Origin: Ruminococcus sp. | GTDB taxonomy: Bacteria; Bacillota; Clostridia; Oscillospirales; Ruminococcaceae | Length of the DNA stretch: 64,000 nucleotides | Direction: 5' to 3' | Assembly: GCA_024697545.1 (NCBI GenBank) | Contig: JAILFN010000123.1 | Span: forward strand, 16,251-80,250 | Part shown: positions 31,615 through 52,638 of the stretch, one piece after another | How positions within the stretch are numbered: position 1 is the first letter of the stretch | How the letters are laid out: every line of letters starts with the position of its first letter | Notes under the pieces: model-generated | Told to the model about the DNA's origin: nothing | The model's database searches: none | Seen by the model: the letters and a program-made list of their open reading frames with translations, nothing else | Translations under genes and position numbers: made by a program

Positions 31615-33552
31615 TTACTCTTCAAGAGCGACCCATTCTTCGGTTTTTTCCTCGACTTCATTGCGAAGGCTTTCGAGAAGGTTGCATTTTTCTGTCATCA
31701 ACGCAAAATCAGCCGCAACTGCGGGGTCTGAGATCTCCTCCTCAAGCTCTGCTATCCGAGTCTCAAGGGCGTCTATCTCCTCTTCGAGCTGCTTTATACG
31801 CTGACGTCTTTTGGCGTCTTCTGCACGCTGCTGCTTGGAGCGGTATTGCTTCTGCTTGTTCGCAGCGTACTCCTCCTCGCGGCGGATACGCTTGTCCTCA
31901 GCTATCTGTTCCTGCTCGGCACGCTGTTCCTCGGCTATGACATTCATATAATTTGAAAAGCTTCCGGGGAATGAACGAACTCCGCCCTCCCGTACCTCGA
32001 CCACGCGGTCGGCGATCTTACTTAACAGGTAACGGTCGTGGGAAACTATGAGCATTGTCCCCTCAAACTCTCTCAGCGCCTCTTCAAGAACTTCCTTTGT
32101 AGGAAGGTCTATATGGTTCGTAGGCTCATCGAGCATCAGGAAATTGCCGTGGTTCTGTACCATTATCGCAAAACATAGCTTGGCACGTTCTCCGCCGCTA
32201 AGGACGGACACGGGCTTGAATACGTCCTCACCGTGGAAAAGCACAGACGCGAGCGCTGAGCGTATCTCTCCATCGCTGAGTGACGGACAGTTCCTTGCCA
32301 TAGATTCAAGAGCATTATCGTAAGGCTCGAGCTGCGCGTGTTCCTGATCGAAATAGCTCAGCTTTACATTATTGCCCCAGACGATATTGCCTTTGCTGTG
32401 AGGCACCGTGCCAAGGATTAGGCGTAAGATAGAGGTTTTGCCGATGCCGTTGTCGCCCACAAGTGCGACGTGTTCACCGCGGCGGATATGAAGATCAAGG
32501 CTCTCGATGAGCGTTTTCTGCTCAAAGCCCTCGCCGACGACAAGCGGGCAATTCACAACCTGAACGATATCCTTAGTCGGCTCAATGGTGTATTCCAGCT
32601 TTATCTTCTGCGCTTTATCAAATACAGCGGGGCGTTCGAGGGGCTCTATCCTGTCGAGCATCTTTTCGCGCGACTTTGCCATCTTTGCTGTCGATGCGCG
32701 TACTTTGTTCCGTGCTATATAGTCCTCGAGCTTCTCGATCTCCTTCTGCTGAGCCTGATACTCCTTTATCTGCCTGGCCGTTCTCTGCTCACGCTGGGCG
32801 ATATACTCGGTATAATTTCCGCGATAGCTTACAAGCCTGCCGTTTTCGATCTCGCAGATCCTGCTGCAAAGCTTGTCGAGGAAATAACGATCGTGCGATA
32901 CTATTATAATAGCACCGCGGTAGGTCTTCAGATAACCCTCGAGCCACATCAGCGTCTTAAAATCCAGATGGTTGGTAGGCTCGTCAAGGATAAGCAGCTC
33001 GGGCTGTTCCAGAAGCAGCTTTGCAAGCGCCAGACGGGTCTTCTCTCCTCCCGAAAGGGTCGAGATCACCCTGCCGTAAGAAAGATCTGAGAACCCCATG
33101 CCGTTGAGTATCTGCTTGATCTTGAACTCAGTGTTGTAGCCGTCATGAAGCTCGAAATACGCGGACAGGCGGCTGTATTCCGCGCCAGCGAACTCAAGCT
33201 CGTCGCCGACACAATCGGTCATCAGCTCGGTAAGCTCGTCCATTCGCTGTTTGATCTTCGTAAGCTTATCGAATGCCGCGTTCATCTCTTCGATAACCGT
33301 TGCATCCGAATCAAGACCCGTATTCTGTGCCAGAAATCCGAGCCCTACATCGCGTACTGTAAGTTCACCGCTGCCGTCGGGCGCTTTGTCATACTCTTCC
33401 TCGCCCATGATGATCTTCAGCAGCGTTGACTTGCCGCAGCCGTTGCGCCCGACAAGTCCCACCGTTTCATTCTCATTGAGCGTGAAACAAATGTCCTTCA
33501 GCAATGGTTCTCCATTAAAGTATTTATATATATGTTCGATATTGATAATCAA
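31615..33552 (-). CDS. ABC-F family ATPase
   Basis: Two ABC modules (GRNGCGKSTLLK, LSGGEKTRLALAK; GDNGIGKTSILR, LSGGERAKLCFA), linker, C-terminal coiled-coil. Confidence 0.95.
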   Translation of the reverse strand: MIINIEHIYKYFNGEPLLKDICFTLNENETVGLVGRNGCGKSTLLKIIMGEEEYDKAPDGSGELTVRDVGLGFLAQNTGLDSDATVIEEMNAAFDKLTKIKQRMDELTELMTDCVGDELEFAGAEYSRLSAYFELHDGYNTEFKIKQILNGMGFSDLSYGRVISTLSGGEKTRLALAKLLLEQPELLILDEPTNHLDFKTLMWLEGYLKTYRGAIIIVSHDRYFLDKLCSRICEIENGRLVSYRGNYTEYIAQREQRTARQIKEYQAQQKEIEKLEDYIARNKVRASTAKMAKSREKMLDRIEPLERPAVFDKAQKIKLEYTIEPTKDIVQVVNCPLVVGEGFEQKTLIESLDLHIRRGEHVALVGDNGIGKTSILRLILGTVPHSKGNIVWGNNVKLSYFDQEHAQLEPYDNALESMARNCPSLSDGEIRSALASVLFHGEDVFKPVSVLSGGERAKLCFAIMVQNHGNFLMLDEPTNHIDLPTKEVLEEALREFEGTMLIVSHDRYLLSKIADRVVEVREGGVRSFPGSFSNYMNVIAEEQRAEQEQIAEDKRIRREEEYAANKQKQYRSKQQRAEDAKRRQRIKQLEEEIDALETRIAELEEEISDPAVAADFALMTEKCNLLESLRNEVEEKTEEWVALEE

Positions 33553-33815
33553 AGGAAGCGCATCTCCTTTTATTCATATTTTAAGTTAAAATTATTTGCA
33601 ATTGAAAAACAGCTTAATCGTTTAAGATTTTGTACAGACTGACATTTTCAAGCACGAATACGAGGCGCGTTTTGTAAGCTTATACAAAAGAGTCTAGAAA
33701 ATTGTAAATTTCTTCAAGCGCCACTTGAAAAAGTTGAAATAGTTTGTTAAAATATATTTAGACAATTATTAATCATACCGACAGCCGGACCCCTTACGAG
33801 ATGGGAGTGATCGTA

Positions 33816-34286
33816 ATGACATTTAAGAAAAGAACAGATAAACCCGAATCAGCAGAACGCGGTATCATTTACAGCTGTTGTCTGGGTGAAGTAAAGTCTC
33901 TTGACAGAATTTCAGAGGATCTGTTCCCAAGCTTATTTGTCGGTGATGGTTTCTGCATCTTACCGACAGGTAACATTTTTGTCTGTCCTGTCAAAGGAGT
34001 TATCAAGGACGTTTCGGAAAACGGAATGGATATCACAATAAAAACTTCTGATGGCTTGATACTCATCGTTTCCCTCGGAAAAGATGGCGGCAAAGCGATA
34101 AACGCAGAGGTATGCGTTCAGCGCGGCGACATCGTTCCCGCAGGTGCCGAGCTATGGAAGACTGACGGTATCGACGGTTCTTTAGTCTGCGTAGTGGTCG
34201 TTACCAACTGCAACGGTAAAGACTTCAAGATTAACTACGGCAGAGTTAAGCAATTGAATCAGCCAATTATGAAAATCTCCATATAA
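33816..34286 (+). CDS. PTS EIIA-Glc-like domain protein lacking the catalytic histidines
   Basis: LFPSLFVGDGFCILPTGNIFVCPVKGVI...RGDIVPAGAELWKTD matches the EIIA-Glc (Crr) scaffold; no His anywhere in the translation. Confidence 0.8.
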   Translation: MTFKKRTDKPESAERGIIYSCCLGEVKSLDRISEDLFPSLFVGDGFCILPTGNIFVCPVKGVIKDVSENGMDITIKTSDGLILIVSLGKDGGKAINAEVCVQRGDIVPAGAELWKTDGIDGSLVCVVVVTNCNGKDFKINYGRVKQLNQPIMKISI

Positions 34287-34301: not shown

Positions 34302-34331
34302 ATTTGACCCGAGCATATCGGGTCACTTTTT
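34302..34331. terminator. Bidirectional-looking terminator between the EIIA-like gene and comF
   Basis: GACCCGAgcataTCGGGTCacTTTTTT. Confidence 0.7.
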
Positions 34332-49856: not shown

Positions 49857-50717
49857 CTAATGTTTATCAATATCTCTGTGGTCGATGCGTATCTTTCTTC
49901 CCTTGCTGCGAAGGTGTTCGGCAACAGCCTCGGCGAATGTAACGCTGCGGTGTTTTCCGCCCGTGCAGCCGAAGCCTATTACGAGCTGCGCCTTGCCCTC
50001 CTTCTCGTAGAGGGGAAGCATATAGTCGATAAGATCGCAGAATTTGTCCAGCAGCTCGCGGGACTCTTCAAACTTCAGGACATAGCCCGAGACATCGGGA
50101 TCAAGCCCCGTCTTATGCTTCAGCTCGGGGATATAGAAGGGATTCGGCAGGCATCTGACATCGAATACAAGATCTCCCTCGCTGAATACACCGTACTTGA
50201 ACCCGAAGGAGCGGACATCAACACGCATATGCTCGCCCGACGTTTCCTCGAAGATGGAATACAGGCGGGATCTCAGCTCTGCTGCCGAATAATTTGTCGT
50301 GTCGATATAATAATCGCTCATAGCCTTGGCAGACATGAGAAGACCGCGTTCGAGCTGGATAGCCTTTGTAACGCTGCCGCCCGCGCTTTCATCGAGCGGG
50401 TGCTTGCGGCGGGTCTCTTTATATCTCCTTGCGATAACGCTGTCTGCCGATTCAAGGAAGATTATCCGCAGGTCAACATCGCTGCTGCGAAGGTGGCTGA
50501 CGGCATCCTGGAGCTTCAGGAAGAAATCACCGCCGCGGACATCGACCACGAATGCGGCTTTCTTTATCATCCCTCCCGAATTCTCACAGAGATCGACGAA
50601 TTTTATTATAAGCTCGGGAGGAATATTATCCACGCAGTAATAATCCATATCCTCAAGGACATTGACTGCCGTAGACTTGCCCGAGCCGGACATTCCCGTG
50701 ATTATGACCAGCTGCAC
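49857..50717 (-). CDS. rapZ: RNase adapter RapZ (YvcJ family)
   Basis: ITGMSGSGKSTAVNVLEDMDYYCVDNIP; IGFGCTGGKHRSVTFAEAVAEHL. Confidence 0.95.
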   Translation of the reverse strand: MQLVIITGMSGSGKSTAVNVLEDMDYYCVDNIPPELIIKFVDLCENSGGMIKKAAFVVDVRGGDFFLKLQDAVSHLRSSDVDLRIIFLESADSVIARRYKETRRKHPLDESAGGSVTKAIQLERGLLMSAKAMSDYYIDTTNYSAAELRSRLYSIFEETSGEHMRVDVRSFGFKYGVFSEGDLVFDVRCLPNPFYIPELKHKTGLDPDVSGYVLKFEESRELLDKFCDLIDYMLPLYEKEGKAQLVIGFGCTGGKHRSVTFAEAVAEHLRSKGRKIRIDHRDIDKH

Positions 50718-50732
50718 GCTTTGACCCTCCTT

Positions 50733-51649
50733 TTATTCGTATGGGATTATACGGACCTCGCACTCGAGGTTGAACCCTGTGGTATCGCGAACCGTACGCT
50801 GAATATGATCTATCAGACCGCGGACATCAGAGCAGGTAGCACCGCCCTTGTTTATGACAAATCCGCAGTGTTTTTCGGACACCTGAGCACCGCCGACTGT
50901 GCAGCCGCGCAGCCCGCAGTCTTCGATAAGCTTGCCTGCGAACTGACCTTCGGGGCGCTTGAAGGTAGAGCCTGCATTTGGAAATTCAAGGGGCTGCTTT
51001 CCTTGCGTCTGCCGATAAGCTCCTTCATCTTGCCTTCGATATCCTGCTTGCTGCCTTTTGCAAGCTCGAAATCGGCGCTTATTATCATCTCATTGCTGTA
51101 ACAGAACCGTGAACCGCGGTATGTAAATCCTATCTGCGAAGGGCGGTAGGTGCGGAGATTGCCGTGGGTGTCCATAGCGGTGACGCTCTTGACCACATTC
51201 TTGATCTCGCCCTGATAAGCTCCCGCATTCATATAAACTCCGCCGCCTACGGTACCGGGGATACCGTAAGCAAATTCAAGACCGCTCAATGAAAGCTCGA
51301 GGGCTTTTCGGCAGACGGAGATAAGGCTTGCCCCTGAATAGGCACGCAGGGTGACATCATCTATCTGCTCGATCTCGCCCAATGAGTTATCAAACAGGAA
51401 GACAACGCCGTTAAAGCCCTCATCGGCGCAGAGCATATTCGAGCCCTTTCCCATAGTAAGGGTGCGTATCTTCTTTTCGGTTGAGAATCTGACCAGCTTT
51501 GAGAGGTCCTCGACACTGTCGGGAGCTATCATGACGGTGCAGGGACCGCCTATTCTAAAGGTCGTATGCTCGCAAAGCGGCTCGTTGCGGTATACCCTGC
51601 AACCGAGTTCCTCTGCAAGCTGTGCAAGCTGTTCGGCAGCGGTTATCAT
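50733..51649 (-). pseudogene. murB: UDP-N-acetylenolpyruvoylglucosamine reductase, apparent 1-nt frameshift
   Basis: HTTFRIGGPC, YGIPGTVGGGVYMNAGAYQGE; frame breaks at ~50998-51002. Adding one A on the minus strand gives [63 protein letters not shown]...RIIPYE*, ending at 50733. Confidence 0.9.
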
Positions 51650-51678
51650 GCTATCATCTTTCCTTTCGGTGTAATACA

Positions 51679-52638
51679 TTACATCAGATCCCAGCTCTTG
51701 ACCTTATCCTTTTTGTCTACCTGAAGACCGAGGTTATCAAGAAGCTCCTGTGCGGCGTTGTAGCCCATCTTCTTCTGGCGGTTGTTCATAGCGGCAACTT
51801 CAAGGATAACGGCGAGGTTACGTCCCGGCTTTATCGGGATAGTAAGGCTGGGGACGCTCACGCCAAGGATAGTCGTGAACTCATTATCAACGCCCATGCG
51901 GTCGTATACCTTTGTGGAATCCCACGGTTCAAGCTCAACCACCATATCTATCTTCTCGGTGACCTTTACGGCACCCATACCGAACAGTCTGCGGACGTTG
52001 ATGATACCTATACCGCGGATCTCAAGGTAGTGGCGGATATTATCGGGGGAGGAGCCCACAAGGCTGATACTTGACACGCGGCGGATCTCTACCGCGTCAT
52101 CGGCAACGAGTCTGTGACCGCGCTTTACAAGCTCGATAGCGGTCTCAGACTTACCGACGCCGCTTTCTCCGACGATAAGAACACCTTCACCGTAGATCTC
52201 GATGAGTACGCCGTGTCTTGTGATCCTCGGGGCAAGGCGCACATTCAGGAAGCTGATAAGAGATGCCATGAAGGTAGTGGTGCTTTCCGAAGTCCTGCCT
52301 ATCGGTATCTCATATTTCTTGGCAAGATCTAGCATCTCGGGATAAAGCTCATGACCGCGGCAGACGATGAACATTGGGATATGTGTAGCGAAAAGCTGCT
52401 CGATCTTCTTGTATCTGGTCTCCTCGTCAACGCTTGCAAGGTATGCAAACTCCATATTACCGCATATCTGTATGCGCTCGGCGTTAAAGTACTCATAGAA
52501 GCCCATGAGCTGGAGACCCGGTCTGTTGCAGTCGTTGTCGCAGACCTTGAGCTCCTCGGGAGGTGCAGGTGTGTATATCAGTTCGAGATCGACCTGCTTT
52601 ACTATCTCGTCTATCGTAACGGTAAATATCTCAGCCAT
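51679..52638 (-). CDS. hprK: HPr kinase/phosphorylase
   Basis: GESGVGKSETAIELVKRGHRLVADDAVEI; EIRGIGIINVRRLFG. Confidence 0.96.
   Translation of the reverse strand: MAEIFTVTIDEIVKQVDLELIYTPAPPEELKVCDNDCNRPGLQLMGFYEYFNAERIQICGNMEFAYLASVDEETRYKKIEQLFATHIPMFIVCRGHELYPEMLDLAKKYEIPIGRTSESTTTFMASLISFLNVRLAPRITRHGVLIEIYGEGVLIVGESGVGKSETAIELVKRGHRLVADDAVEIRRVSSISLVGSSPDNIRHYLEIRGIGIINVRRLFGMGAVKVTEKIDMVVELEPWDSTKVYDRMGVDNEFTTILGVSVPSLTIPIKPGRNLAVILEVAAMNNRQKKMGYNAAQELLDNLGLQVDKKDKVKSWDLM

Follow-up and report, generated by a model that had tools for sequence, protein, structure and literature searches.

The window, i. e. the whole 64,000-nucleotide stretch of DNA from a rumen Ruminococcus sp. analysed here, encodes a stand-alone descendant of EIIA-Glc that has probably abandoned phosphotransfer and been retained as a regulator or adaptor independent of phosphorylation. 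Its translation contains no histidine at all, as the initial annotation had stated, and the protein belongs to an orthologous family in which the gene persisted through repeated losses of the phospho-acceptor. The features concerned are listed in Table 1.

Table 1. Features of the EIIA-Glc-like locus and its context (positions are those of the window).
Feature	Position	Strand	Remarks
Gene of the His-less EIIA-Glc-like protein	33816-34286	+	156 aa; Met71 = His75 and Ser86 = His90 (E. coli numbering); Cys21-Cys22 invariant
Promoter candidate, sigma-70 type	33725-33753	+	TTGAAA-17-TAAAAT, extended -10 (TG); relative G006 shares the -10 region
Intrinsic terminator candidate	34305-34325	+	8-pair stem, then T run
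ABC-F protein gene	31615-33552	-	Divergent neighbour; accompanies the orthologue in four genera; context
hprK, HPr kinase/phosphorylase	51679-52638	-	Profile match; context: rest of the regulatory PTS

The EIIA-Glc fold claimed by the initial annotation was supported by sequence and structure comparisons alike. The protein matched profile PF00358 (PTS_EIIA_1) with an E of 1.9e-14 and 53.9 bits, against a gathering score of 27.2; its TIGR00830 score, 45.9 bits, lies under the curated cut-off of 97.5. Sequence matches in the PDB were to IIA-Glc of E. coli, B. subtilis and Mycoplasma, and to the EIIA of entry 3our. An AlphaFold model (mean pLDDT 82.4, pTM 0.78) was compared to known structures with Foldseek, and at E<1e-3 only IIA-Glc structures were returned, 1gpr, 1f3g and 3our scoring E values of 5e-10 to 8e-10 and TM values of 0.74-0.76. 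A different fold, that of the M23/LytM hybrid-motif proteins, was discarded, as its Foldseek scores were far weaker. No match to PF00381 (HPr) was found in the protein at E up to 1.

Aligned to E. coli IIA-Glc, the protein has both His75 and the phospho-acceptor His90 replaced (Table 1). The VHFGID motif does read VSLGKD, as the initial annotation had it; its reading of NHA as NGMD was loose, being off by one position. Because both catalytic histidines are missing, the known transfer from HPr to His90 is predicted to be impossible in this protein, in agreement with what had been proposed. The hydrophobic residues of the E. coli active site are partly retained, Phe41 being kept (Phe37), and Phe71 and Phe88 being changed to Ser67 and Ile84 respectively. 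By the same alignment, the interaction face of dephospho EIIA-Glc is only partly conserved. Compared with the EIIA-Glc/Crr proteins of E. coli and B. subtilis (PF00358, TIGR00830), the window protein is alike in fold, length, descent and the GDGF-x-I-x-PTGN and PVxG motifs, and stands alone as E. coli Crr does, but it lacks His75 and His90, has a serine at position 90 and carries an extra Cys-Cys pair.

An in-frame ATG lies upstream at 33801, and would prepend MGVIV, likewise without histidine. When upstream regions were aligned with that of the nearest relative, G006 (70% protein identity), this ATG was not kept; the start codon at 33816 and its GGAGTGAT ribosome-binding site both were, which makes 33816 the likelier start. 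An alternative start codon bringing back a histidine was thus dismissed, the ATG at 33801 being the sole other one. The promoter proposed in the initial annotation is present, with an extended -10; in G006 the -10 region is kept, and of the -35 the TTG alone. A candidate stem was also found for the proposed terminator. Consensus scans gave scores near chance for both elements, and the promoter rests on its conserved -10, the terminator on its position. Since the ABC-F gene upstream is divergent and the ComF-like gene downstream convergent, a single-gene transcript is likely, which fits the earlier description of the gene as monocistronic. A catabolite-response (cre) site in the promoter region was discounted: one with a single mismatch is present there (33672-33686), but such sites were not in significant excess window-wide. 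No known RNA element was found in the intergenic region. As to the neighbour, the ABC-F protein scored 462 bits with NF000355 (‘ribosomal protection-like ABC-F’), for a cut-off of 380.

Orthologues were found in 11 of 12 congener genomes, the sole exception being a genome that is 56% complete. They come from Ruminococcus sp. metagenome assemblies and from the isolate Ruminococcus sp. YE71; presence in an isolate genome and in many assemblies excludes an assembly artefact. In the alignment of the 12 genus members, position 90 is a serine in every row and Cys21-Cys22, a pair absent from E. coli IIA-Glc, is invariant. The His75 column reads M, F, C, C, C, L, R, R, R, H, H, K, as though this residue drifts freely in the window genus once His90 is gone. 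Several members have histidines at other sites, so that the complete lack of histidine is an incidental peculiarity of the species, and the loss of His90 the trait of the lineage. Consistent loss of both histidines among homologues, envisaged in the initial annotation, was borne out for His90 in the genus (12/12); orthologues that keep one or both occur in other genera. Reading frames are intact in all 12 members. The dN/dS ratio of the gene is about 0.10 for the pair formed by the window genome (G000) and G006, and 0.06 for the G010-G009 pair, the latter being more reliable because synonymous divergence between G000 and G006 is near saturation; the neighbouring comF-like and ABC-F genes gave 0.09 and 0.02. 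Judging from these ratios, the gene is under strong purifying selection.

Profile searching across the taxonomic family (299 genomes), together with searches of two further genera, gave an orthologous set of 35 members, window genus included. An ABC-F match is present in the flank of 30 of them, some of the remaining five being at contig ends, and the ABC-F and EIIA-like genes are divergent wherever positions were checked. Some genomes outside the window genus retain this pair after losing the remainder of the gene block. Both histidines are present in G264 and in three genomes of genus g138. Residues 75 and 90 are His and Cys in eight genomes of genus g95, Arg and His in G342, His and Asn in G339, Leu and His in G352, and Asp, Glu or Asn with Ser in eight genomes of genus g89. 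The gene was searched for and missing in several g89 and g95 genomes, where it is therefore dispensable.

A family tree was built without the trait columns. It placed G352, which has His90, as sister to the g89 serine group with good support, and the best tree needs at least three changes to account for His90 loss. Grouping all Ser/Cys90 rows in one clade was rejected (p-AU 0.01) and grouping the Ser90 rows alone was not (p-AU 0.12), which puts the firm minimum at two losses. As every stage is found at one orthologous locus, we conclude that His90 was lost repeatedly with the gene retained, and that the window protein belongs to a series of old, repeated losses inside one family rather than to a wholly separate protein type. 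The Cys-Cys pair occurs in 27 of the 28 Ser/Cys90 proteins and in none of the 7 others. This association is a lead, strong by count, and corresponds to only two to three independent contrasts, with which a sign test cannot reach significance. The g95 orthologues (L116-L123) combine Cys90 with an invariant His75 and mostly the Cys-Cys pair, which could make a His/Cys site on this scaffold. The invariance of His75 in this Cys90 group suggests that the site may still be used.

The PTS complement was judged from profile searches, the window assembly being 87% complete. EI N-terminal domains and HPr were detected in all 13 genus genomes, and HprK in 12 of them, the window genome having all three. 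The PF02378 EIIC domain was present in 9 of the 13, and none was found in the other three congeners or in the window assembly, an apparent difference from the EIIA-Glc/Crr systems of E. coli and B. subtilis. IIA of the Fru, Man and Lac types was found in none of the 13, and no PF00358 protein other than the window protein in the 87% complete window assembly. In several congeners with EIIC, IIA domains carrying both histidines are fused to it, so that the stand-alone protein does not appear to be needed for transport there. On the minus strand of the window at 49857-52638, hprK is adjoined by murB-like (50852-51679) and rapZ-like (49857-50717) ORFs recognised by eye, hprK alone among the three being profile-matched.

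Unphosphorylated EIIA-Glc binds and regulates GlpK, LacY and MalK, and phosphorylation of His90 breaks these contacts. If the window protein is a regulator or adaptor, as we favour, it would use the same face as dephospho EIIA-Glc to bind its partner or partners; our guesses for these are the ATPases of sugar ABC importers or a metabolic enzyme. The partial conservation of the residues around the active site and the lack of the gene in several g89 and g95 genomes weigh against this reading. The decoy or allosteric role proposed in the initial annotation is a conjecture. Provided that the binding role was kept, a Ser90 protein would be permanently dephospho-like, because serine at this position cannot receive phosphate by the HPr route. 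Its activity would then be set by its own amount or by the partner, and not by PEP or sugar status, since no phosphorylation would be possible at position 90. The stand-alone EIIA would have been in use for regulation before it lost His90, with which the orthologue series fits, and His75 would afterwards have been free to drift in the serine groups.

Crh of Bacillus subtilis is an HPr homologue without the phosphorylatable histidine, kept for regulation and phosphorylated on Ser46 via HprK. The analogy lies in the loss of the phospho-histidine from a homologue of a PTS phosphocarrier whose gene was retained, and among EIIA proteins the window protein would correspond to Crh; it differs in being an EIIA homologue, without a Ser46 site, and not an HPr homologue. 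The targets of dephospho-IIA-Glc, i. e. GlpK and MalK in E. coli and DctD in Vibrio vulnificus, which dephospho-IIA-Glc activates (PMC11077940), offer a precedent for the unphosphorylated form being an active binding partner. Binding is switched there by the phospho-state, unlike in the window protein, which has no His switch. EIIA-Glc regulates through this phospho/dephospho switch, and orthologues without the phospho-site would be natural frozen forms; a series with 0, 1 and 2 of the histidines makes it possible to tell what the scaffold does in regulation apart from phosphotransfer. The finding also bears on the role of EI, HPr and HprK in gut and rumen Ruminococcus with apparently few or no sugar PTS permeases. 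A literature search for His-less EIIA-Glc or Ruminococcus PTS returned nothing relevant, subscription literature being thinly covered, which leaves absence unproven.

Other explanations were weighed against this one. Position 90 might still be used chemically, Ser86 (Cys90 in g95) being phosphorylated in a switch of changed chemistry, with a Ser/Thr kinase or HprK as donor, or by way of a thiophosphate in the EIIB manner. We consider this unlikely, even though Ser or Cys is found in 28 of the 29 members that lost His90 and arose independently at least twice (three times on the best tree). Each residue is moreover invariant in its groups (Ser in 12/12 and 8/8, Cys in 8/8, the latter with His75 kept in 8/8), and the genome encodes HprK. 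Such small residues may however merely fill the pocket vacated by histidine, His75 is mostly not retained with Ser90, and one member carries Asn90. HprK is, as far as established, specific for HPr and Crh, which counts against its phosphorylating Ser86. Alternatively, Cys21-Cys22, joined in g95 by Cys90 and His75, could form a thiol or metal site, in which case regulation by the protein would depend on redox state or on metal. The distribution of the pair and its absence from E. coli IIA-Glc speak for this, but the contrasts are too few for significance, and the window genus shows no other conserved ligand; we find this proposal quite doubtful. Repeated exchange of the histidine for Ser or Cys, together with Cys-Cys, may even have given the EIIA scaffold a novel switch, covalent or of the metal/thiol kind, in organisms where EI and HPr possibly supply no sugar permease, although we give this reading little credence.

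It is, finally, very improbable that the gene is a decaying EIIA-Glc remnant retained by chance beside the ABC-F gene. It does evolve faster than its neighbour (identities of 70% versus 93% for the G000-G006 pair), and some genomes of related genera lack it. Against decay stand the low dN/dS of 0.06-0.10 and the presence of intact frames throughout the genus, which we take to rule it out, as well as the conserved ribosome-binding site and -10 and the invariant residues. The initial annotation had held that homologues retaining the histidines would signify recent decay: such homologues do exist in other genera, but purifying selection and genus-wide presence speak against the decay.

A second PTS homologue missing its histidine was noticed in the same genomes. 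This short HPr-like protein of about 76 aa (G000:C95:8060-8239, L106; also L111, L113 and L114) is present in at least 9 of the 13 genus genomes. It matches the C-terminal part of HPr only: the segment with the phospho-His is missing, and the surroundings of the Ser46 position still read AKSIMG.
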